Part shown: positions 5,858 to 57,532 of the stretch, one piece after another
How positions within the stretch are numbered: the stretch's first letter is position 1
How the letters are laid out: the number at the start of each line of letters is the position of its first letter
IMG/VR virus record: IMGVR_UViG_3300017744_000007
Location: 1-57,532 of that record
Direction: 5' to 3' (one strand)
Source: a virus
Length of the DNA: 57,532 nucleotides
Position numbers and translations under genes: made by a program
The notes under the pieces: model-generated
Database searches by the model: none
The model's input: only the letters and a program-made list of their open reading frames with translations
Told to the model about the DNA's origin: nothing

Positions 5858-6127
5858 ATGTATAAGACATACGTTATAAAAAACCTTCAAACTACCGACA
5901 CCACTTTAAGAGACGGCGAAGAATTGTTTTCTGTTTATGTATCAAACACGTCTACAGATGACCAAACGTTTAATTTAAAGATAGATGAAGTTTATGTTTA
6001 CGAAGGAGTCGTTATACCCCCTAGCGTAACTTTAGTTTTAGACAACCCAATTATTTTTGACACAAGTAGGATTACGGTTTCAGCAGGCGTAGCAGATAAA
6101 CTTGACATAACATACACCGTGAAATAA
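5858..6127 (+). CDS. Small beta-rich structural protein
   Basis: An 89-residue protein of predicted beta strands (TYVIKNLQTTD, ELFSVYVSNTS, FNLKIDEVYVYEG, SVTLVLDNPIIFD, ITVSAGVADKLDITYTVK). The pattern resembles the two small proteins at 11915-12681 and fits a decoration or fibre-associated subunit. It has its own TAnnTTTG element 4 nt before the ATG. Its stop overlaps the ATG of the next gene (TAATG), so it heads the envelope cassette transcript. Function is unknown. Confidence 0.7.
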   Translation: MYKTYVIKNLQTTDTTLRDGEELFSVYVSNTSTDDQTFNLKIDEVYVYEGVVIPPSVTLVLDNPIIFDTSRITVSAGVADKLDITYTVK

Positions 6128-7164
6128 TGAAATTGAGAATTTTTATATTTTTATTTTTAGCGTTTTTTGCAAATACAGCAGACGCACAACTTAAAAAACC
6201 TTTTAAATTTTCTACTTTTTATATAGCGGCTAACGGTGGAACTTCTTTAGCTAACGAAAACATCTACTCGGTAAACAATAGCTTTCTTTCTACAGACACA
6301 ATAATAACACCTTTTGATTACTCTTTAACTATGGGTATTCGCAAGATAAAAAGGTTTGGCTATGAAGATGTTAGCAAGTTTAAAGATGGTACTGAATCTG
6401 CATACGGAGACGCTACTACTATTGGCTTATCTCCTTTTGAATATTTGTTTGAAGTGGACTACAGAAGACAAGAAGGAAATAAATATTTAGACCAACATCA
6501 TTTTCTTAGATACGTAAAGCCTTTATGGATGACTAAAGTATCATACATTAAAGAGGGTTTTGCAGACATTGAATATTACGAAGCTACACAAAGATTTAGA
6601 ATTAATGGCAAAAAGAAGCTATCATTTAATATAGGTGGAGTTCAAAGACTTGCAGAACCTTATGGATACAACCCGTTAGAAGAATGGCTAATAGCTTCGG
6701 GACAGCTACACTATACTTGTTTAGCGATTGAAGAAGGTTACAGCGTAGATGTATACGAATCTGAATATAGAGACCCAAACGGTAATTTAGTAGCGGAGAA
6801 CGCAACTATATGGAATCAAGTAGTTATACCTGAAGTACTAAATGACTACGTAGAAAAGAAAAAGAATGAGTTAGATAATCAATGGCAATACTCTTTGGTG
6901 GTAGGATTTGATTTTTATCATTACAAAAAGAATTTCTGGTTACACTCTTGGGGTAACTTAATGCCTTATCACTATGATGGTGGAGGTGAATACTCATATC
7001 ATAACTTTAACGATGGAGAACAATGGTATGACTACTCAGGAGGATTAATTTTTGGATACAACTTAAACAGAAACGTTGGTTGTTTTATAGAGGGTAAATA
7101 CAATAAGTATTGGAACAGAGAATGGTACGACTTTAAATTTGGTATAAACTATAGAATATTTTAA
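6127..7164 (+). CDS. Secreted outer-membrane-barrel-like protein
   Basis: This 345-residue protein has a clear Sec signal peptide (MKLRIFIFLFLAFFANTADA, cleavage after ADA). The mature part is rich in aromatic residues and alternating strands. The end (SGGLIFGYNLN, VGCFIEGKYNKYW, WYDFKFGINYRIF) consists of amphipathic strands finishing in Phe, the typical C-terminal residue of outer-membrane beta-barrels. The gene is overlapped by its upstream neighbour (TAATG) and followed 2 nt later by a membrane-protein gene. An outer-membrane or periplasmic location in the infected cell is well supported. Masking of the phage receptor or help in lysis is only inference. Confidence 0.72.
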   Translation: MKLRIFIFLFLAFFANTADAQLKKPFKFSTFYIAANGGTSLANENIYSVNNSFLSTDTIITPFDYSLTMGIRKIKRFGYEDVSKFKDGTESAYGDATTIGLSPFEYLFEVDYRRQEGNKYLDQHHFLRYVKPLWMTKVSYIKEGFADIEYYEATQRFRINGKKKLSFNIGGVQRLAEPYGYNPLEEWLIASGQLHYTCLAIEEGYSVDVYESEYRDPNGNLVAENATIWNQVVIPEVLNDYVEKKKNELDNQWQYSLVVGFDFYHYKKNFWLHSWGNLMPYHYDGGGEYSYHNFNDGEQWYDYSGGLIFGYNLNRNVGCFIEGKYNKYWNREWYDFKFGINYRIF

Positions 7165-7165
7165 A

Positions 7166-7447
7166 ATGGCAAAAGAACTTAACGAAGAAACAGGGTTCAA
7201 CGTAAGCATAAAGACTTTATTGGGAATAGGTTTTGCAATGGCAACTCTTATTGGAATGTGGTTTACACTACAGGCAGACATAGCTGAAGCTAAACAGCTA
7301 CCAGCTCCTACACCAGCAGAAATTACTCGCATGGAATTTGATATGAAAGACCAGCTTGTGCGTCAAACAATTATGACTACGCAAGAAGACGTTAAAGAGC
7401 TTAAAGAGGCTATACAGAGAATAGAGGATAAACTAGACGGAAGATAA
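7166..7447 (+). CDS. Single-TM membrane protein with coiled-coil tail
   Basis: This 93-residue protein has a short polar N-terminus (MAKELNEETGFNVSIKTLL), one transmembrane segment (about residues 19-37, LLGIGFAMATLIGMWFTL) and a charged, helical C-terminal domain with heptads ending in KELKEAIQRIEDKLDG. This layout is common for accessory lysis proteins or holin-like proteins in phages of aquatic bacteria. It is coupled to its neighbours by stop/start overlap. A bona fide 3-TM holin is encoded separately at 10568, so this could be a pinholin, an antiholin or an unrelated envelope factor. Confidence 0.65.
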   Translation: MAKELNEETGFNVSIKTLLGIGFAMATLIGMWFTLQADIAEAKQLPAPTPAEITRMEFDMKDQLVRQTIMTTQEDVKELKEAIQRIEDKLDGR

Positions 7448-7797
7448 TGTTTAAGGCTCAAAGAAATATTTTTACTATATACTTGTTAGTTTTATTACTA
7501 TTACTGAGCTGTAATAAGGCTTTTTCTCAAATAGAAATAATACATTTTAATGCTGGTTTCAACTCAGCAAATAATGTTGCTTGGTTTGAAAAGTTAAGAG
7601 AGTGTGACAAACAAAGTCTTTTAATAGAAGAAGACAATAATCAAGTAGAATATCAAATAGCTGTTGTTCCTACAATAGTAGTGTTTGATGACGGTGAAGA
7701 GGTAAAAAGATTTCAAGCAGACATAAGTTTTAAAATGGTTGCTACAAGAAAAGAAATACAAGAATACATTGACGAATTAATAATAAGCAAATTCTAA
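7447..7797 (+). CDS. Thioredoxin-fold lipoprotein lacking CxxC
   Basis: A 116-residue protein with an N-terminal signal ending in the lipobox-like LLLSC (Cys at about residue 22); cleavage after AFS by signal peptidase I is the alternative. The mature part keeps a thioredoxin core: strand EIIHFNAGF, helix NNVAWFEKLREC, and the cis-proline segment YQIAVVPTIVVFDDGEEVKRF. The usual CxxC active site is absent: the loop reads FNAGFNSANN. It therefore cannot be a normal disulfide oxidoreductase and may act as a chaperone or binding protein in the periplasm. It lies directly before the Cys-rich T9SS cargo gene with an ATG/TAA overlap, so a role with that protein is an attractive inference. Confidence 0.72.
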   Translation: MFKAQRNIFTIYLLVLLLLLSCNKAFSQIEIIHFNAGFNSANNVAWFEKLRECDKQSLLIEEDNNQVEYQIAVVPTIVVFDDGEEVKRFQADISFKMVATRKEIQEYIDELIISKF

Positions 7798-9779
7798 TGA
7801 ACAGGTTTACTAAATTTTTATACGCATTTATTATGGTTGTAGTGTTTACACTATCAACTGCTTTTGCTCAATGTCCTAATGGAACATACTTAAACATTGT
7901 AATAAATCCAGACCAATACCCACAAGAAACATCTTGGGTTATTGTTAATGTTTACGGAGACACTATAGTTACAGGAGGGCCTTATACTAATATAATAGAT
8001 TATTCACCACAAATTACACAACTGTGTGTGCCTAACGGTGACTATTACTTTAACATATACGACACTTATGGCGATGGAATGCAAGGAAGTCTATGGGGTG
8101 GTCAAGATGGCTCATACTACCTAATAAGATGTAATGATACTATAGTTGAAATGGATTCAGCTAATTTTGGTACGTACACATATCACGGTTTTACAGTAGA
8201 AGACTGCGCACCTCCGCCTCCTGTATACGGTTGCATGGATAACGACTTTGTAGAGTTTTTACCAATAGCAACAGTTGATACAGGAATGTGTTACACTCCA
8301 AAGTTATACGGATGTACAGATGAAGAAGCATTTAATTATGACAGTATAGCTAATACAAATATACTAACAGATAGCTGCACACACACCTTAGAGTTGACAG
8401 ACTTAGCTGGTAACGGCTGGGCTGGAGCATATCTACAAGTATTTCAAGGTAACAACTTTTTAGGTATATTTACTTTAGAAGATGGTTTTGATACTACGTT
8501 TACTTTTGACCTTAGTATATCAGAGCCTGTGGAGATAAAATTTAATACTACTCAACAATCTCAGTTTACATCGGTACAATGCGGTTATAGTTTATATTCA
8601 GAGGAACATTTAACAATAAGCGAACCAGGAGGCTTTGCTAATCCTTTAATTCCTTTTGCTACAAACTTAGGTATGCCGTATTGCGGCAATAGTTGTATAG
8701 AAAAAATATTTGGTTGTATTGATGATACAGCTTTAAATTATGATGATGGTGCTAACACGGATGATGAAAGTTGTTATTACATTGAAGGATGTACTAATCC
8801 ATTGTATTTAGAATATAACGAAGACGCTGACTTTGATGACGAAAGTTGTTTAACTCCAATAGTTTTAGGATGTATGGACGAGTACGCATTAAACTACAAT
8901 CCTGAAGCAAACGTAGAAATAGAAGGTTATTGCATTGAAATTGTAGAAGGTTGTATGAATGAATTAGCATTTAACTACAACCCTAACGCTAACGTGCCTG
9001 ATACTTGTATAGCGGTAATAGAAGGTTGTATGATTGTTGAAGCTTTAAATTACGATTCTTTAGCCAACACTGACGATGGTAGCTGTACGCTCCCAGTTTT
9101 AGGATGCACTAATTCTGAATCATTTAATTATAATCCACTAGCAAATGTTGACGACAATTCTTGTATAGATGTTGTTTATGGATGCACAGATAATACAATG
9201 TTTAATTATAACTCAGAAGCAAATATAGATAATGGTAATTGCATACCTTTTTATTATGGATGTACAGACAGTACAGCAATTAATTATGACGATAACGCAA
9301 ACTCTGACAATGGGTCTTGTATTTATCCTTTGTATGGGTGCATTAATCCGTCTGCTATTAATTATAATCCACAAGCTAACATGGCAGACAGTAGTTGCTA
9401 TTACTCTGCTGGGTGTTATTCTGGTGATATATACTATGTGCCTAATGAATGTTTTAGCTGGGTTATCGAAGTAGACCCATATTGCTGCAATACAAACTGG
9501 GACGATGGTTGTGATGGACTTTACGAATATTGCGTAGATGGATGGACTGGGCCTGTGGGGGTTGAGACTTATAACAGACTTGGAATAAATCCCTATCCAA
9601 ATCCAACTAAAAATACTGTTAATTTTAATAACTTTGTAGATGTTGATGTTTACGATGCAAAAGGAATTTTAGTAAACAGACATAAAAAGATTAATGCTTT
9701 AGACTTGCCAAAAGGTATGTATCATTTAATAATAAAGTTTAATGAATTAATTTTCAACAAAACAATAGTTAAATTATAA
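7797..9779 (+). CDS. Type IX secretion cargo protein with Cys-rich repeats
   Basis: This 660-residue protein has a Sec signal peptide ending TAFA|Q. Two copies of a GDG-containing beta domain follow (DTYGDGMQG near residue 90; DLAGNGWAG near 205). Then come about 11 repeats of 22-26 residues of the form GC(T/M)xxxAxNYxxxANxxDxSC, a Cys/Asp-rich module known from Flavobacteriia surface proteins. A Cys-rich block (DPYCCNTNWDDGC) precedes a canonical type-A T9SS C-terminal sorting domain: YPNPTKNTVNF, VDVYDAKGILV, LDLPKGMYHLII and the basic end NKTIVKL. Known biology: the domain directs export by the PorU/V machinery to the surface or medium. A phage gene carrying it implies that the phage uses the host T9SS to display or release this product. 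It may be of host origin. Its function (adhesion, receptor masking, exclusion) is unknown. Confidence 0.9.
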   Translation: MNRFTKFLYAFIMVVVFTLSTAFAQCPNGTYLNIVINPDQYPQETSWVIVNVYGDTIVTGGPYTNIIDYSPQITQLCVPNGDYYFNIYDTYGDGMQGSLWGGQDGSYYLIRCNDTIVEMDSANFGTYTYHGFTVEDCAPPPPVYGCMDNDFVEFLPIATVDTGMCYTPKLYGCTDEEAFNYDSIANTNILTDSCTHTLELTDLAGNGWAGAYLQVFQGNNFLGIFTLEDGFDTTFTFDLSISEPVEIKFNTTQQSQFTSVQCGYSLYSEEHLTISEPGGFANPLIPFATNLGMPYCGNSCIEKIFGCIDDTALNYDDGANTDDESCYYIEGCTNPLYLEYNEDADFDDESCLTPIVLGCMDEYALNYNPEANVEIEGYCIEIVEGCMNELAFNYNPNANVPDTCIAVIEGCMIVEALNYDSLANTDDGSCTLPVLGCTNSESFNYNPLANVDDNSCIDVVYGCTDNTMFNYNSEANIDNGNCIPFYYGCTDSTAINYDDNANSDNGSCIYPLYGCINPSAINYNPQANMADSSCYYSAGCYSGDIYYVPNECFSWVIEVDPYCCNTNWDDGCDGLYEYCVDGWTGPVGVETYNRLGINPYPNPTKNTVNFNNFVDVDVYDAKGILVNRHKKINALDLPKGMYHLIIKFNELIFNKTIVKL

Positions 9780-10084
9780 TGGCTGAAAAAAGAAAAAAGT
9801 CTAAAACAATTAGAAAAACCACAAAAGGCAAGGGAGCTAATTATAGGTCTACTAAGTCTGGAGCTGGTATGACTCGTAAAGGAGTTAAGGCATATAGAAA
9901 AGCAAACCCTGGTAGTAAATTAAAGACTGCCGTAACGGGAAAGGTTAAAGCTGGGAGTAAGGCTGCTAAAAGAAGAAAGTCTTATTGCGCTAGAAGTTTA
10001 GGTCAACTAAAAAAGAGTAGTGCTAAAACTAGGAATAATCCTAACTCAAGAATTAGAGCCGCTCGTAGGCGATGGAAATGTTAA
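9779..10084 (+). CDS. Small basic protein (DUF6321-like)
   Basis: A 101-residue, Lys/Arg-rich protein. The core (GAGMTRKGVKAYRKANPGSK, LKTAVTGKVKAGSKAAKRRK, SYCARSLGQ) matches what I recall as DUF6321, a small family seen in many aquatic phages and nucleocytoplasmic viruses. The net charge is strongly positive, so it probably binds DNA or RNA. The ATG overlaps the stop of the T9SS cargo gene (TAATG). It is the first of a row of basic mini-proteins. Function is not established. Confidence 0.75.
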   Translation: MAEKRKKSKTIRKTTKGKGANYRSTKSGAGMTRKGVKAYRKANPGSKLKTAVTGKVKAGSKAAKRRKSYCARSLGQLKKSSAKTRNNPNSRIRAARRRWKC

Positions 10085-10567: not shown

Positions 10568-10978
10568 ATGCTAAATAATATATTAGGAGGGATACTTGGT
10601 AAAGTAGTAGACAACGCTGAGGGTATTCTTGATAAAGTAATTACTACTGACAAAGAAAGAGAAGAGGCTAAACTACAGTTACGCAAAGTCTTGTTAGACG
10701 CAGAGAAAGAAGCTTTTAATAAAGAAGTGGAAGACAGGAAGGACGCAAGAGACTTGTATAAAGACGATGCTATAATTCAAAAGATACTTGCTACTTTATT
10801 TACAGTAGCTTATTTTGGTATTAGCTTTGTTATGTTTCAACACTTTGTTAATGGAGTTATTGACTTAGGAGAGTTTGAGATTAGTTTTATATCTACTATA
10901 TTTGGAGCTATGTCTGCAAAAGTTAATACTATTATAGACTTTTTCTTTGGAGGAAGCTCTAGTAAAGAAAAAAAATAA
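10568..10978 (+). CDS. Holin, GTA/3-TM type
   Basis: This 136-residue protein fits the 3TM holin family (PF11351 type). It has an N-terminal amphipathic, Gly-containing segment (MLNNILGGILGKVVDNAEG), a long charged helix (TDKEREEAKLQLRKVLLDAEK), two hydrophobic helices (about 71-90 and 97-120) and a short polar tail (GGSSSKEKK). Such holins permeabilise the inner membrane to release the endolysin. The endolysin-like gene is 435 nt downstream on the same transcript. Its start follows the preceding mini-gene by 1 nt. Confidence 0.82.
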   Translation: MLNNILGGILGKVVDNAEGILDKVITTDKEREEAKLQLRKVLLDAEKEAFNKEVEDRKDARDLYKDDAIIQKILATLFTVAYFGISFVMFQHFVNGVIDLGEFEISFISTIFGAMSAKVNTIIDFFFGGSSSKEKK

Positions 10979-11171: not shown

Positions 11172-11413
11172 TGGCATTAACTAAAAGACAGAAAAGTTTA
11201 AAAAAGTGGACTAAACAAAAGTGGAGGACTGCTTCTGGAAAAAAGTCTAGTAAAACTGGAGAAGTCTATGCTCCCGCAAAAACTATTGCTAAATTAAAAA
11301 GCACTGAAAAAGGTAGAAAAAAACTAGCAGCAGCTAATGCTAAAAAAAGAAAAGCAACCAAGAAAGGTAAGCAGCACGCTAAACACGGATTACATAAAGG
11401 AAAAAAAAGATAA
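11171..11413 (+). CDS. Small basic protein, DUF5872-like
   Basis: An 80-residue protein, about 40% Lys/Arg. Motifs LKKWTKQKWRTASGKKSS, GEVYAPAKTIAKL and AAANAKKRKATKKGKQHAKH match the pattern I recall for DUF5872, a small family of phages and giant viruses with no known function. It overlaps both neighbours by stop/start fusion (TAATG). Binding to nucleic acid is inferred from composition. Confidence 0.72.
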   Translation: MALTKRQKSLKKWTKQKWRTASGKKSSKTGEVYAPAKTIAKLKSTEKGRKKLAAANAKKRKATKKGKQHAKHGLHKGKKR

Positions 11414-11889
11414 TGAATTTACAAGTATTAAGATTTAGTAGTGGAGAAGACTCAACCTCTGGATTATTGTTTGAAACAAACTTAGACATGAAGTCTTTTT
11501 TATGTTACACGCTAGAAGACGAAGCTAGAGATGTAAAGATAAAGGGTGAAACAAGAGTTCCTGCTGGCACGTATAAAATAAAATTAAGAACCGAAGGAGG
11601 ATTTCATGGAAGATACACTAAAAAATATTCTGGTATGCACGTTGGTATGTTGCATATCGTTGACGTTCCTGGTTTTGAGTATATTCTTATACACACTGGA
11701 AACACTGATGAACATACTGCTGGCTGTCTTATCGTTGGTGATAGTCAAGAAAACAATAACATTCTTAAAGATGGTTTTATTGGAAAAAGTGTTAATGCCT
11801 ATAAAAGAATCTATCCAAAAATAGCAAACGCTATTAAGTCTGGAGAAGAAGTTACTATAACTTATATAGATTACGACATAAAACTTTAA
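11413..11889 (+). CDS. Putative endolysin, DUF5675 family
   Basis: This 158-residue protein belongs, by motif, to the DUF5675 family found in lysis cassettes of Bacteroidota and other phages. The key residues are IHTGN (His about 94) followed by EHTAGCLIVG (His 101, Cys 105), which resembles the H...S/T-x-GC active site of L,D-transpeptidase-like folds. The N-terminal half forms strands (LQVLRFSSG, CYTLEDE, VPAGTYKIKL). Its position just after the holin on the same transcript supports a cell-wall-cleaving role. Catalytic activity of this family is inferred rather than well documented. Confidence 0.75.
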   Translation: MNLQVLRFSSGEDSTSGLLFETNLDMKSFLCYTLEDEARDVKIKGETRVPAGTYKIKLRTEGGFHGRYTKKYSGMHVGMLHIVDVPGFEYILIHTGNTDEHTAGCLIVGDSQENNNILKDGFIGKSVNAYKRIYPKIANAIKSGEEVTITYIDYDIKL

Positions 11890-51539: not shown

Positions 51540-54500
51540 ATGGGAAAATTTTCTGACGCTGGTAGTTTTTTTAATTCAAGAAATCAAAAACCACAAGCTC
51601 CGCAACAACCAGACTCACCTTCTGCTAACTTGCAGAATCAACTATTAAAAGAACAAGTTGATGCTACAACTAAAAAAAGAGAAGGAGGGTATGATGCTTT
51701 TCAACAACAAAAAGGAGGATTTACTATAGACCAACAAGGACAGCGTGTAGCAAACACCCAAGAAGATATTTTAATGAGTGGAGGCACAAAGCTTGGAAAA
51801 AGTTTAGTTGCTGGTACTGGTGACGTTATAGAGCAGGTTGTAGACTTAACTCAATTAGTTTATAACTTTGCAACACCTTTTGCCGCAGTAGAAAGGGCTG
51901 CTGGATTAGACTTTAGCAAAAACTTTTTTGACTGGGTTAAAGAAAATACATCTCAAGAATTACAAGACTATGCTGTAACATATCAAAAGCCAGGGTCACA
52001 AGACTTCAAGTGGTCAGACATGGCAACAGCAGACTTTTGGACTACAGACTTTGCAAGACAAGTCCCTAACTTATTATCAATGATAGCAGGGGGTGCAGGA
52101 CTAGTTAAAGGAGCAGGAACTCTTATGACTAAAATGGCAACTAAGTCTATTGCAAAAGGTGGAACAAGATTATCAAAAGCTGGAGCATTATCTTCTAAAG
52201 TTGTAGACCCAGCAGGTAGAACTATTGGACAGATAGGTGGTAAAGGTATTGGTAAATTATTTACAAGAACAAAAGGTTCTGTAGGACTAAGTACGAGAGG
52301 AAAGCTTGTAGCTGGTATTGGTGGCGGTGCAGGAATGAACTTAGTTGATGGTGGTATTGTTGCTGGTATGGCTTATGATAGAGCAATAGAGGAGTTTGGA
52401 AACGATGACGAGGGAAGAAGATTGGCTGGACAAATAGCTGCTGATATATTTATAGACAATACCAAGTGGATGGCAGTAGACGCTTTGTCCTGGGGATTTA
52501 CATTTGGAGGTGGTTCTAAGGTTATATTAGGTAAAGCAACGCAGAAATTAGGTCAAATAAAAAATGGATTTGGTAAAAGAGCTGCAAATATATTAGTTAA
52601 TGCTAGTGCTGGTTCTGCTGCTGGTGCTGCTATTGCTGGTGCTGCTACGTTAGGAGAAGAGGGTATGGGTGACGCTATTAAGACAGGAGCGTTAGCTGGA
52701 CTTAGTGGTGGACTTCTTAAAGGAACTAGAGGTGTAAAAGCTGCTGGTATGTTAGCTCCAGAAGGTATTGAAGAGATGTTTCAGGAAACTTATCAAGAGT
52801 GGATTGAAAAGAAAGCTTTTAACGAAGCTAGGGGTGAAGAAGAAAAAACACCTACCTACTGGGACTTTTATTCATCTGATGAAGCAAGAAAAACAAAAGC
52901 TATATCGCTTATATCTGGTATGGCTGGTTCTACCGTGGGTGGATACACAAATTTAATTAATGACGTAGCAGACAGGAGTTTTGAAAATGACAAAAAAATA
53001 GATGCTATAAGCTCTATAATGGATAGGGCCAACAATTCAGAAGATGATACTTATGAAAAAACATCTGCAATGTATGACATGGTTTCTCAGTCTGTAGCTG
53101 ACCAAAACGATGACAACTTATTAGCCTGGATAAATGGAGAAGCAAGTAAAGAAGGTGGTGCTGTTGATGCAAAACTACAAACTGAACTTGTTTCTTTTAT
53201 GGAGAAACAAAAAAAGACTTACGAAAAAATAGGTAGTGGTATTAAAAACATTAATGAAGGTGAAAAGTCAAGATTGTTTAGAATGCAAACTGGTATTGCT
53301 AAAAATGTTGCTGAATTTAAAGAACAGTCTGACATATACAACGAAGATAAAGCTGATTTAATTAATCAAATTAAAGAAATAGAAAATAGTAATTTATCTG
53401 ACACTGCAAAAAAACAAGCCATAAGTAATTTTAATGAACGTATAGCAGAGTTAGATGCAGACTTTAATGAATTAAAAAACAAAATTAACACTGCTAACAG
53501 CGAAATACAAGAAGAAATAAACACCTATACTACTAGTTTAATTACAAAATCTAAAGTAAGAAAAGCAGCAAGCGTAGAAGGTATTAAAGATGCCGTTAAA
53601 TCCGCTACAAGTCAAATAGGTAAGTTTGGTAAAGGAGTAAAAGAATTTTCACAAGGAGTTTTTGACGGTGTAAATAAAGCGAAAGCAGACTACACAAAAA
53701 GAAAGCAAGAGGAGCAAGCACAACAAGCTGAACAAGCGCCAGAAGGACAAGAGCCTACTTTAGGTGAGCAGGTTTTTGATATGCCTAAAGAAAATGTGTT
53801 CAACATAATGACTCAAAAATTTAGAGCGTTTTATAAGGGTAGTAAAGATATTGATACTGATATGTTCACAGACGAGCAGTTAGATAAATTAATTTCTGAA
53901 GCATTTACTGAAAACGGAGTAGACGGAACAACAAGTCAAGAAGAGTTTGCAGCTAAAATTGAAGCAATAGAAAAAACTCTTAACGAAAAGCACAAAACTT
54001 TTGTAGAAAATAAAGCTAAAGCTGCTGAAGATTCTGAGTCTACTAAAAAGTCTCCTTTTCAAAAAGCAAAAGAAAAGGGAGCAGAAGTTATTGGAAAAGT
54101 TGTAGATAATGTTAAAGAAGGAGTTGAATCTGTTAAAGAAGCCCTTACTAAAAAACAACCTAAATTTGAAAAACTTAGCGTTTTAGACCAGACAGACCCA
54201 AACAATATTATTGTTAGTAACGAAGAGGTTGTAGAGGAAATACAAAAAAGAAAAGGAGGCGATGTTTATACTCAAGAAGAGTTTGATATAGTAAAAAAAG
54301 AATTGAAGGAAAAAAAAGCTGAAGAAAACAAAAAGTCTGATACTCCTAAAGTTAAAGACGATGTTTCTTCTGATGTTATAGAAGATGTAGAGTTTGAAGA
54401 GGTTACAGAAAACTCTGAAAAAGATAATCCTTTAAAAGCTAAAATTAACGAAGAGTTTGATAAAGAAATTGCTGAAATTCAAGCTGAAATAGATAAAGAA

Positions 54501-57500
54501 ACTGATGAAGAAAGAATAAAAATACTTCAAAAAGCTTTGGCTGAAGTTAAAGAGTCTAAACTTAGAAAAGTACAAGGAGAGCCGTCAAAGCCTATAGGCA
54601 AAAAAGAGTCTGTAAGAAAGGCTAAAAAAGATGCTAAAAAAGCTAAAGACAAATACAAGTATAGCTGGTATAATCCTTTAGGAATATTAGAAAGAAGAAA
54701 TTTTAGAAAAGAAAGAACTAAAAAGGTAAAAGAAGCTATAGCTGAATTTGACGAAGCTAAAAAACAAAACTCACTACATTATGTTTACGCTTTAAAAGAC
54801 GCTAACTATCCTGGCACTGCTATTGTTACTTTAGCTGAAATGTCGCAAATGTTTGGTGAAGCAGGTACTTCTGCTGTAGTAAACGCAACTATATATGCCG
54901 CTAACGGACCAGACTTTGCTAACATAGTTAAACATGAGTTTGGACACGTTTTGTATCCTTTGTTTAAAGACACTCCTTTAATGCAAGACATTAAGAGACT
55001 TATTCTTGAAGATGGTAAAATAATTAAAAATATAACGCAGACTTATCCTGAGTTAATTTTATTTGACACAGAATTAGGCCCACAAACTATTGAAGAAATA
55101 ATAAGAAATCCTAACGTGCTTAAAAATATGTTAGACCACAATTCTACTATAGAAGGTGATATAAAAAGTATTGTAGAAAGTTTAAATACAGGTAGAATAT
55201 TTACTAATGAAATAAACTCTTTACTTAAAAAGATAGAGGGCATGGACTCTATATCTATTGCTAAACCAGAAAATCAAGAATTGCTTATAGAGGAAGCTTT
55301 TGCTCATTACCTAGAAAAAGATAGCATTACTCTTGCAGACATAATAGCTAAAGACGTTAAGACTGAGCAAAGACTTAAAAGAAAAGTTAATATTGTTGCA
55401 GAAAAAATTAAAGTTCCTTCTAAGACTACAGACGAACAAAAGTTTGAAATTATAAAAGCAATGGACTCTCCTGCTAATAGAGCAGACACGCTAGAAGAGG
55501 CTTTAGATATTATAAGAAGAAACGCTGACAGCAGAAGTAAAATACATAAGCCTAAAAGAAGTTCTAGGGTTATGAGAAAAAAACCAAACAAATCATTAAA
55601 TGATATAGCTCAAGCACATTATGAGAACTCAGAGCTTGTTAAAGCTATTCTTATAAACAATAGAGGAGCGTATGACTCTATGATTATGTCTTCTATAGAA
55701 GAGCTGTCTGGTAAAGAATTGTCACAAGAGCAAATAAAAGAGGTTTTACAAAAAGAAGCTCGTATATTTTTAAATGTTATTAATAAACAAGAGTCCGCTA
55801 CCTCTGGACTTATAAATAAAAACAAAAATTATCAATATGACGAAGCAAGTATAGACGACATATCTGGCTCAGTATTAAGTGAACTTATAGCAGAAGGTAC
55901 TTTAGGTAATAATGAAATTACACAAGCTTTAGAATTAGCTGGAATATTAGATAAAAATTCTGAAAGAATACCTTTCTTGTTTGAAGAAGAGTTAGATGAC
56001 TTTGTGATGACAAAAGACTCTAATGACAATGTCGCAATACAGAACGAAAGGTCTTCTACATCTAAATTTATAGACGCTTTTGTTCTTTACTTAAATAGCG
56101 AAAGAGGTAAATTTTTATTAGAAAGCGGAAAGCTAGAAGGAGAGTTAAATCTTTACAACGAAGGAGCTATTAGAAGGGCTATTAGAAAAGAGTTTAGACA
56201 GGCTTTAGTTCCTAAAGGAGAAAATGTGTTTATAGCAGACTTTATGGACTCTATAATTAATCCTAAAACGCCTCTATTAAAAGCATTTAAACAATTTACT
56301 TTAGAATTATATAAAGATAAATACGGAAGTGTTGCTGGCTCTAATCAATACTTAAACGCTATAGCAAGAGGAATACATCACGAACAGTCCTCTAATGTTG
56401 TTGAGTCAAGAGATATTTTATTTTACACAGAACAAGACTCTGATTACTTTATAGAACCCAGCATAGCTGAGTTTGAACAATTTGTAATTGAAGACCTTAT
56501 TACAGACAATGAAACAAATGTAAGCTTAGATAGACTTAACCTCTTAAAAGACTCTAAAAGAGTTAATATGCTTGAATTAATAGAGGCTATAGGTGATATT
56601 AAGTTTAAATCTAAATCTGTACAAGCATATTTAGACCAATTTGCAATACAAGAGTCTTTTACTTTTATGCACAAAGGTAAAACGCTTAAAGCTGTAGACG
56701 TAGTAAATGATATTATTAAGTCTAACGGTAAAATAGATTCTGAGTTACTAAAAAGCATAGCAACTGAAATAACAATGCTTTCAAGAGACCTTAATCAAAT
56801 TACAATGGTTGATATGGCTAGACTTGAAACTGGCACAAGTCTTCTAAACAAGACATCTTCGTTGTATGAAGGCTTTAGTTCTATGAAGCAATATCTTATA
56901 GACAAAACTAAGACTACAAACAAAACAATTAAAGAAGTTTCTGATAATTCTGTATTTGATTATTTAATAAACAAACTAGGAATAGACCCTAAAATTTCAG
57001 CTTCATCTGGAGTAAGAGTAACAGATATTGATGGAATGATAAAAGGTGATAGTTATGTAAACCTTTCTCCTGACGAAATATTAATGAGTGACATTTTAAG
57101 AATGCTTACTGTAGACGAAGACTCATATCAAATGCCTATAATGGTATTTAGTGAAAAGTCTAGGAGATACAATGTTACTGTTCCTAAGTATAAAGATTTA
57201 AGAACTGCTGGAGGAAGCTTAGAATCTGACTTTGTAGAATTTTTAGCTAAAGAAATAGAGGGTGCAAGATATTCTAAAGGAAATAAGGTTTCTAACCTAT
57301 TTAAGTCTAGCCCAGGCTCTACAGTGCTTGAGAGAATAGTAAACAAAGAAGAACTTAAAAAACAAGTTAAGTTTTTAGAAAATTATATTAAAGACAATCC
57401 TTACATAATTAGCAACTTAATTCAAAACGGAGTTATAAAGTCTACTGACGGTAAAGTTCCTGTAAAATTACTTGAAGATTTAGTTGTAGCTACAGCTCTT

Positions 57501-57532
57501 AACAAATACTCTGCTCAAAAATCTTTAGTAGC
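51540..57532 (+). CDS. Giant virion protein with HExxH metalloprotease, N-terminal part (3' partial)
   Basis: Open from ATG 51540 to the last base (1,997 codons plus 2 bases). The first 75 residues are Gln-rich. Residues about 80-460 are hydrophobic, Gly/Ala-rich and helical (LLSMIAGGAGLVKGAGTLM, INLVDGGIVAGMAYD-type stretches), suggesting membrane association. Coiled coils and an acidic low-complexity zone follow (about 480-1070). At 54933-54947 (about residue 1132) the motif KHEFGHVLYP gives HExxH; an EEAFAHYL segment about 120 residues later can supply the third zinc ligand. A zinc protease domain is therefore likely. The chain probably continues at base 1 of the window. Confidence 0.82.
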   Translation, partial: MGKFSDAGSFFNSRNQKPQAPQQPDSPSANLQNQLLKEQVDATTKKREGGYDAFQQQKGGFTIDQQGQRVANTQEDILMSGGTKLGKSLVAGTGDVIEQVVDLTQLVYNFATPFAAVERAAGLDFSKNFFDWVKENTSQELQDYAVTYQKPGSQDFKWSDMATADFWTTDFARQVPNLLSMIAGGAGLVKGAGTLMTKMATKSIAKGGTRLSKAGALSSKVVDPAGRTIGQIGGKGIGKLFTRTKGSVGLSTRGKLVAGIGGGAGMNLVDGGIVAGMAYDRAIEEFGNDDEGRRLAGQIAADIFIDNTKWMAVDALSWGFTFGGGSKVILGKATQKLGQIKNGFGKRAANILVNASAGSAAGAAIAGAATLGEEGMGDAIKTGALAGLSGGLLKGTRGVKAAGMLAPEGIEEMFQETYQEWIEKKAFNEARGEEEKTPTYWDFYSSDEARKTKAISLISGMAGSTVGGYTNLINDVADRSFENDKKIDAISSIMDRANNSEDDTYEKTSAMYDMVSQSVADQNDDNLLAWINGEASKEGGAVDAKLQTELVSFMEKQKKTYEKIGSGIKNINEGEKSRLFRMQTGIAKNVAEFKEQSDIYNEDKADLINQIKEIENSNLSDTAKKQAISNFNERIAELDADFNELKNKINTANSEIQEEINTYTTSLITKSKVRKAASVEGIKDAVKSATSQIGKFGKGVKEFSQGVFDGVNKAKADYTKRKQEEQAQQAEQAPEGQEPTLGEQVFDMPKENVFNIMTQKFRAFYKGSKDIDTDMFTDEQLDKLISEAFTENGVDGTTSQEEFAAKIEAIEKTLNEKHKTFVENKAKAAEDSESTKKSPFQKAKEKGAEVIGKVVDNVKEGVESVKEALTKKQPKFEKLSVLDQTDPNNIIVSNEEVVEEIQKRKGGDVYTQEEFDIVKKELKEKKAEENKKSDTPKVKDDVSSDVIEDVEFEEVTENSEKDNPLKAKINEEFDKEIAEIQAEIDKETDEERIKILQKALAEVKESKLRKVQGEPSKPIGKKESVRKAKKDAKKAKDKYKYSWYNPLGILERRNFRKERTKKVKEAIAEFDEAKKQNSLHYVYALKDANYPGTAIVTLAEMSQMFGEAGTSAVVNATIYAANGPDFANIVKHEFGHVLYPLFKDTPLMQDIKRLILEDGKIIKNITQTYPELILFDTELGPQTIEEIIRNPNVLKNMLDHNSTIEGDIKSIVESLNTGRIFTNEINSLLKKIEGMDSISIAKPENQELLIEEAFAHYLEKDSITLADIIAKDVKTEQRLKRKVNIVAEKIKVPSKTTDEQKFEIIKAMDSPANRADTLEEALDIIRRNADSRSKIHKPKRSSRVMRKKPNKSLNDIAQAHYENSELVKAILINNRGAYDSMIMSSIEELSGKELSQEQIKEVLQKEARIFLNVINKQESATSGLINKNKNYQYDEASIDDISGSVLSELIAEGTLGNNEITQALELAGILDKNSERIPFLFEEELDDFVMTKDSNDNVAIQNERSSTSKFIDAFVLYLNSERGKFLLESGKLEGELNLYNEGAIRRAIRKEFRQALVPKGENVFIADFMDSIINPKTPLLKAFKQFTLELYKDKYGSVAGSNQYLNAIARGIHHEQSSNVVESRDILFYTEQDSDYFIEPSIAEFEQFVIEDLITDNETNVSLDRLNLLKDSKRVNMLELIEAIGDIKFKSKSVQAYLDQFAIQESFTFMHKGKTLKAVDVVNDIIKSNGKIDSELLKSIATEITMLSRDLNQITMVDMARLETGTSLLNKTSSLYEGFSSMKQYLIDKTKTTNKTIKEVSDNSVFDYLINKLGIDPKISASSGVRVTDIDGMIKGDSYVNLSPDEILMSDILRMLTVDEDSYQMPIMVFSEKSRRYNVTVPKYKDLRTAGGSLESDFVEFLAKEIEGARYSKGNKVSNLFKSSPGSTVLERIVNKEELKKQVKFLENYIKDNPYIISNLIQNGVIKSTDGKVPVKLLEDLVVATALNKYSAQKSLV
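54933..54947 (+). other. HEFGH zinc-protease motif in giant gene
   Basis: The codons encode His-Glu-Phe-Gly-His, the HExxH zinc-binding and catalytic motif. It follows AANGPDFANIVK and precedes VLYPLF. The candidate third ligand is Glu in IEEAFAHYL at about 55290. Confidence 0.8.

Follow-up and report, generated by a model that had tools for sequence, protein, structure and literature searches.

Results

The locus and its phage genome

The window, by which we mean the whole stretch of 57,532 bases that was analysed, is an IMG/VR virus record (G000). An earlier sequence-only reading had placed it in a phage, and this setting is borne out by the record itself and by genes for a terminase, a portal and a major head protein; a DnaB-type helicase, exonucleases, an Erf-like annealing protein and a RusA-like resolvase are also encoded. 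The same reading called the phage lytic-looking, which stands uncontradicted: the 37 window proteins compared with PHROGs, a subset of the window's ORFs, include no integrase, and one window ATPase matches a transposition protein weakly (E 0.002). An ATPase encoded at 25747-26943 matches phrog_249 ('porphyrin biosynthesis', E 4e-52). A giant gene is apparently split across the record ends (window 51540-57532 and 1-2823), and the related contigs L264 and L266 carry a single ORF of about 3,800 aa that matches both end parts, so the window record may represent a circular genome that was cut, or a permuted one.

At the centre of this study is the gene for P0001, which the sequence-only reading had delimited exactly and in the right frame, and which lies in a run of genes on one strand (Table 1).

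Table 1. Features of the cassette region, numbered from the first base of the window
Feature	Position	Strand	Basis
345-aa outer-membrane beta-barrel, Sec-type leader, C-terminal Phe (cassette gene 1)	6127..7164	+	AlphaFold2, fold search
93-aa one-TM protein (TM), coiled-coil-like C-terminal segment (cassette gene 2)	7166..7447	+	Topology by eye; conserved
116-aa Sec-leader thioredoxin-fold protein (Trx) without CXXC (cassette gene 3)	7447..7797	+	Profile, alignment
T9SS cargo gene P0001	7797..9779	+	660 aa, ATG start; profile, record search, fold
P0001 Sec-type signal peptide (residues 1-24), Gln at +1	7797..7868	+	By eye; regex on homologue set
P0001 beta-domain 1 (residues 26-139)	7872..8213	+	Fold: marginal to Ca-dependent carbohydrate-binding module, 2xhh Z 6.6
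P0001 region with 11 Cys/Asp repeats, GC(T/M/I)..A.NY...AN...C	8229..9416	+	By eye
P0001 beta-domain 2 (about residues 190-300)	8364..8696	+	Fold: marginal to vCBM60, 2xfd Z 7.6
P0001 type-A T9SS C-terminal sorting domain (CTD; residues 595-660)	9579..9776	+	TIGR04183, PF18962, fold
DUF6321 basic protein, next in gene run	9779..10084	+	Neighbour in 18/73 barrel loci (from best 80 of 460)
Weak holin-like protein	10568..10978	+	phrog_3427 E 7e-4; GTA_holin_3TM E 0.03, under cut-off
DUF5675 protein, possibly peptidoglycan enzyme (weak Tlde1 match)	11413..11889	+	Near barrel in 32/73 loci (from best 80 of 460)

As the sequence-only reading had it, the N-terminus of P0001, judged by eye, is a plain Sec-type leader. 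It reads MNRFTKFLYAFIMVVVFTLSTAFA followed by Gln at +1, and by regex this Gln is kept among relatives. That reading's estimate of about 11 repeats agrees with the 11 GC(T/M/I) units counted by eye, to which a related GCYSG unit can be added; a stricter regex returns 8. Its two 'GDG domains' both model as beta-domains, the second of them sitting between repeats 2 and 3, but the motifs themselves read YGDG and AGNG. Searches of Pfam gave P0001 no enzyme or PA14 domain and no BACON hit at E up to 1, and its sequence had no match in the PDB.

The cargo gene overlaps each neighbour by one base (at 7797 and 9779), as do the genes meeting at 7447 (7166/7447) and at 6127 (5858/6127). Of the five junctions between 5858 and 9779, four thus have a one-base overlap, and at the remaining one the 6127 and 7166 genes stand one base apart; translation is therefore probably coupled. 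Since these genes also follow lectin-domain and fibre-like genes, they would probably be made together and late.

The C-terminal sorting domain

The sequence-only reading took the C-terminus of P0001 for a complete type-A sorting domain of the type IX secretion system (T9SS), and named the lack of any sorting-domain profile hit as refuting; profile comparison yields such a hit and upholds the reading. Residues 600-659 of 660 match TIGR04183 significantly, with 26.4 bits (E 5e-6) against the NCBI cut-off of 23 bits. PF18962 gave 26.8 bits (E 6e-6) and missed its gathering score of 27 by 0.2 bits, a near miss that we counted against the T9SS reading; the cut-off of TIGR04183, the other model of the same domain, was passed. 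When the window's own record was searched, the domain scored 32.1 bits (E 6e-9), above the cut-off. By eye, P0001 ends in FNKTIVKL, so that the conserved Lys in the last strand and the C-terminal motif described for type-A CTDs in the accessible text of PMC11285876 are present.

An AlphaFold2 model built from a 35-row alignment had a mean pLDDT of 73.8, with blocks of 69-85 across residues 601-660. The best solved match of model residues 595-660 was the CTD of FspA (8glj_D, Z 8.3, rmsd 1.9 over 66 residues), followed among T9SS proteins by NucA (8glk_D, Z 8.0), the RgpB CTD (Z 7.3), the mirolase CTD (Z 6.9) and PorU (Z 5.3). The two beta-domains match Ca-dependent carbohydrate-binding modules weakly (2xfd Z 7.6, 2xhh Z 6.6); by the structure-comparison tool's own note, a Z under 8 may reflect no more than a common arrangement. 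With the whole model as Foldseek query, unspecific rows stood on top and T9SS CTDs came at ranks 8, 23 and 45. The profile match, the top fold matches to CTDs of T9SS substrates and the sharing of the domain by relatives together make P0001 look like a real phage-encoded T9SS cargo, which the host T9SS would export. The description of T9SS as confined to Bacteroidota was slightly narrow, the range given in the accessible text of PMC7468147 being the wider Fibrobacteres-Chlorobi-Bacteroidetes superphylum.

Linkage of four genes across viral loci

With P0001 as query, 59 stretches yielded 57 loci. In two (L056, L057) the match consists of GC repeats within an unrelated protein of 3061 aa; the remaining 55 hold homologues, of which three are truncated at the C-terminus, and the loci are partly non-independent in that some contigs are near copies. 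The sequence-only reading had proposed a search of phage databases for homologues: in GenBank phages P0001 had partial matches only, covering 9-16% of the query in five records (four S-CAM3 and one marine virus). The barrel, TM and Trx had no match in 50,697 GenBank phage records.

That reading saw the cargo gene alone and missed that the three neighbouring envelope genes (6127-7797) travel with it. The neighbours of cargo homologues are often the same barrel, TM and Trx genes in changing order. To avoid circularity, linkage was re-tested with the barrel as sole query and without P0001. In IMG/VR, 460 of 465 matching stretches (not de-duplicated) encode the barrel; the best 80 of the 460 were analysed, and 73 of these differ in barrel sequence and form the non-redundant set, with flanks of 6 kb, some of them cut. 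Among these 73 loci from the best 80 of 460, TM is present in 63, Trx in 63, cargo in 62 (after a size, score and leader filter; the unfiltered cluster gives 63) and the CTD in 51, the next commonest neighbours being one cluster in 35 and DUF5675 in 32. Eleven of the 73 lack cargo: in ten the sequence breaks off on one side no more than 2.2 kb from the barrel, and the eleventh shows only a weak match. In the 80 loci as a whole (best 80 of 460), a CTD-bearing ORF occurs in 57 and a P0001-like ORF by BLAST in 71, a figure that takes in virion-type proteins with GC repeats. For the 23 of 80 without CTD, the cargo scores above 100 bits in 11 (nine truncated, two bearing the short tail described below), is weak in 2 and is missing in 10; as all ten of these loci end, on one side, at most 2.2 kb from the barrel, they neither support nor refute linkage.

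With Trx as query, 127 stretches yielded 61 loci, of which 59 have a P0001-like ORF and 47 the CTD. We also searched 30 whole viral records, 17 picked for bearing the cassette and 13 by portal alone. The CTD was found in 17 of the 30, once in each and never more than 3.2 kb from a barrel match, which in G222 is weak (E 2e-11); nine records had neither, and the four with a barrel but no CTD were one short-tail and three lipoprotein records. The 13 portal-picked records comprise four with both and nine with neither, several of the latter being fragments. One 29.8-kb contig (L059), whose portal is 100% identical to the window's, has no cassette; it shares its metagenome number with L009, which holds a 99% identical P0001, and its lack of a cassette is therefore probably only fragmentation.

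The cassette partners

The barrel model has 14 long strands (mean pLDDT 80.6; residues 78-101 under 50), and its nearest folds are EstA (Z 13.8), Tsx (13.6) and KdgM (13.4), with NanC also matched. A PDB search with the barrel profile gave no sequence relative. As to a possible PorV-like shuttle of the T9SS, with a FadL/PorV-type barrel, FadL chains appear among the Foldseek matches at TM-scores of about 0.3 or less, and PorV does not appear among the matches listed. The Trx profile finds thioredoxins (2vim, E 3.7e-9), and the N..N that replaces CXXC is invariant in a 31-row alignment.

Among 196 genomes of the order of a Flavobacteriales metagenome-assembled genome (MAG) co-binned with a barrel contig, the barrel occurs in one, on that MAG's own phage contig, whereas the N-terminal domain of P0001 (query residues 25-140) matches in 92. 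The barrel thus looks phage-specific and the cargo host-type.

Export labels of the cargo family

Where the C-terminus is intact (52 homologous loci), it is a type-A CTD of the YPNP/FPNP kind in 41 cases and another tail, about 45 aa long, in 11, a share that we counted against the T9SS reading. TIGR04183 is matched by 26 of 35 aligned family members including P0001 (best E 4e-14), and eight of the 35 bear the short tail. The motif of this C-terminal tail is VTDLLGRP.....NKLLLFIYDDGSV.KK.I; phage loci with it are L011, L012, L013, L017, L018, L022, L024, L045, L162 and L225, and host loci are L274-L293. In five phage proteins it matched nothing in Pfam or in NCBIfam (the latter to E 5), and a text search, which covers no figures, found no paper with its letters. 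Its derivation from a cut-down CTD received no support from hhalign (probability 2.4% local, 0.2% global).

The short tail was matched in 57 of 148 genomes of the order, with at least 48 copies in the richest, and TIGR04183 is present in 126 of the 148. In each of 20 host matches picked from among the stronger ones, one per genome, it sits at the stop (0-1 residues away), and by a crude rule 17 of these 20 proteins have a leader; L275 and L288, which start far inside their frames, are doubtful.

Six loci, of eight chosen, were compared with the window region by region; their NG86 dN/dS values are rough, several dS being saturated or undefined. In four of the six, no region is less conserved than the CTD. 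Its identity to the window is 45% in L002 against 76-93% for the folded core, 37% against 72-85% in L004, 38% against 66-83% in L007 and 33% against 58-70% in L014. In L005 both labels have diverged (signal peptide 31%, CTD 35%, core 74-95%), and L006 is the exception, with a CTD at 88% and a core at 73-89%. L005 apart, the leader is conserved like the core or nearly so. The CTDs of P. gingivalis and T. forsythia are reported to be incompatible (PMC11285876, accessible text), so that a label tracking the host would make sense.

A second clade of six contigs of 66-169 kb (L233, which equals L257, and L258-L262) carries a diverged cassette, located in L233 at 6216-9376, with barrel, Trx, a larger TM protein and a lipoprotein. 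The L233 barrel is 30% identical to the window's, and its TM protein matches the window's at E 4e-8, the other clade members being assigned by eye. Fourth place is taken by the lipoprotein, with a lipobox of the LLFT(I/F)SC type (cut by the contig end in L260), and the CTD is absent from the three second-clade records searched. The L233 lipoprotein and the L040 cargo have a 60-aa domain in common (53%, E 3e-15) as well as GC repeats; by regex, L258 and L259 have one such repeat each and L260-L262 none. In L262 the barrel is set apart from the rest of the cassette by three further genes. By eye, Q at +1 is missing from most leaders of this clade but present on the Trx leaders of L260 and L261, and the host of the clade may belong outside Bacteroidota. 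In the TM protein of the clade there is an additional N-terminal part, which we take to resemble MshEN and for which Pfam gave nothing significant.

Hosts, transfer and a sister phage

With a permissive regex and no shuffled control, Q at +1 was found in 122 of 126 barrel sequences, 101 of 111 Trx and 109 of 115 unique sequences of the cargo set, at least four of whose six misses are virion-type proteins. The Q-rule is a Bacteroidetes trait not common to the whole FCB group (PMC5837995, accessible text), and Q at +1 on all three leaders fits a Bacteroidota host. Barrel contigs are co-binned with Sphingobacteriales, Winogradskyella and Flavobacteriales MAGs that have 15, 39 and 42 CTD matches, the 42 including those of the phage contig itself. 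Six barrel contigs lie in genome bins, three of them in Nitrosopelagicus and Maricaulis bins, which makes binning a poor guide to host. The contigs concerned (L235 in the Nitrosopelagicus MAG, L238 and L239 in the Maricaulis MAG) are probably mis-binned; the former MAG has a single CTD match, on C64, a contig that is probably the phage's own, and the latter has none.

Across 16 loci and the window, barrel and TerL identities are correlated (Spearman 0.83). Only two of 136 pairs are strongly discordant, both involving the window: L134 and L144, with barrels at 71 and 69% and TerL at 27%. Transfer is thus indicated for these two and not for all loci; the others listed, with TerL at 23-30% alongside barrels at 55-58%, are compatible with descent without transfer. 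A sister phage, G203 (L074), shares the window's gene order, with TerL at 91% and portal at 82%, but its homologues of the 5858 and 11915 genes enclose 1.4 kb of small ORFs where the window has 5.8 kb. BLAST at E 1e-4 over the whole contig found no match to barrel, TM, Trx, cargo, DUF6321, holin-like protein or DUF5675. Since this phage lives without the cassette, the cassette is not essential.

Discussion

The domains, the linkage of the genes, their presence or absence between relatives and the change of export label are direct observations. On balance, and with modest confidence, we favour P0001 as the outermost member of a conserved four-gene cassette that builds a phage-specified structure of the envelope or surface; its export, complex, timing and purpose we infer. 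A recurring set of inner-membrane, periplasmic, outer-membrane and surface proteins that a sister phage can dispense with is most simply accounted for in this way. Sec would carry P0001 across the host inner membrane, and the host T9SS would then recognise its C-terminal domain and move it to the cell surface, placing one protein in each layer: TM in the inner membrane, Trx in the periplasm, the barrel in the outer membrane and the cargo outside. Such a structure could alter the outside contacts of the infected cell by shielding against further phages, by masking or by binding glycans or particles, and a surface change of this kind (exclusion, masking, glycan or particle binding), much as the sequence-only reading had suggested, is the role that fits best. 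Counted against this reading are the marginal carbohydrate-binding fold matches (Z 6.6-7.6), topologies assigned by eye or regex and the frequent closeness of lysis-type genes, which would fit another role.

That closeness makes a part in the lysis programme the main rival, with TM as an i-spanin-like part, the barrel as its outer-membrane partner and the cargo loosening the surface coat. DUF5675 and the holin-like gene lie closely downstream in the window, are absent along with the cassette in G203, and adjoin the barrel in part of the loci (32 and 19 of 73, from the best 80 of 460). Against this, DUF5675 was not seen near the barrel in the other 41 of these 73 loci (6-kb flanks, some cut; best 80 of 460), both assignments are weak, no o-spanin-like lipoprotein partner was noticed in the window cassette, where TM and coiled coil were read by eye, and a secreted repeat protein is not something that lysis obviously requires; we consider this account unlikely. 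The cargo could instead be a plain moron, an adhesin-type T9SS gene taken from a host and useful in binding nutrients or particles, whose neighbours are linked for unrelated reasons. The host-type N-terminal domain (92 of 196 genomes) and the enzymes among the Cryophage cargo (PMC7468147, accessible text) speak for it. Yet the barrel, found in one of 196 genomes and there on a phage contig, stays with the cargo despite changes in gene order and across records, and in another clade a lipoprotein fills the fourth place, so that a moron of this kind seems rather improbable to us.

Far less probable still is a place for P0001 in the virion or tail, with a C-terminus that only resembles a T9SS domain. 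The gene lies downstream of fibre-like genes, and GC repeats also occur in virion-like proteins, one of 3061 aa (L056/L057) and several of about 1,150-1,600 aa, but these large proteins are without leader (by eye) or CTD, while P0001 homologues keep a leader and a host-type C-terminal tail. Large proteins of this type, which carry GC(T/M)D Cys repeats without leader or CTD, are encoded at L056/L057:3926-13108, L099:1293-5660, L104:1094-5758 and L117:1055-5818.

Phage-encoded T9SS cargo is already published (PMC7468147 and PMC6949934, accessible text). The Cryophage genes likewise have type-A sorting domains, vary between variants and were proposed to hijack host secretion; they encode an endoglucanase, a GH39 protein and a PA14-domain protein, whereas P0001 has no such Pfam domain, and the accessible text of PMC7468147 does not mention a four-gene envelope cassette. 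The proteins of crAss-like BACON cluster 2, encoded near head genes (PMC6949934, accessible text), are phage-encoded T9SS-domain proteins too, and P0001 differs in having no Pfam BACON domain. Superinfection exclusion lipoproteins of the Ltp type are also phage-encoded and exposed on the host surface, and one cassette clade uses a lipoprotein, but they stem from temperate Streptococcus phages (PMC3952083, accessible text). With the type-A cargo of marine Flavobacteriales P0001 has its N-terminal domain and CTD in common; unlike that host cargo, it is phage-borne and tied to three further envelope genes. What is new here is the cassette of a barrel, a one-TM coiled-coil protein, a CXXC-less Trx and a surface cargo, for which we found no report in the open-licence literature (titles and abstract starts).

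More tentatively, and at somewhat less than even probability, the cassette could be a phage-specific trans-envelope apparatus common to uncultured marine phages, at least sometimes passed between unrelated phages, in which the machine is conserved, the surface subunit travels by any export route available in the host, and the export label (T9SS CTD, short tail or lipobox) is exchangeable. The accessible text of PMC7468147 and PMC6949934 treats phage T9SS cargo as a remark on annotation, and our analysis sets it within a well-delimited group of four genes that recurs from locus to locus. Whether and why phages load host secretion systems thereby becomes testable, with four genes, a natural sister without the cassette and natural changes of label. 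Work on the cassette also points to the short tail, unrecognised by Pfam and NCBIfam in the proteins tested, which on exported proteins of marine Flavobacteriales is possibly an unrecognised sorting tail.
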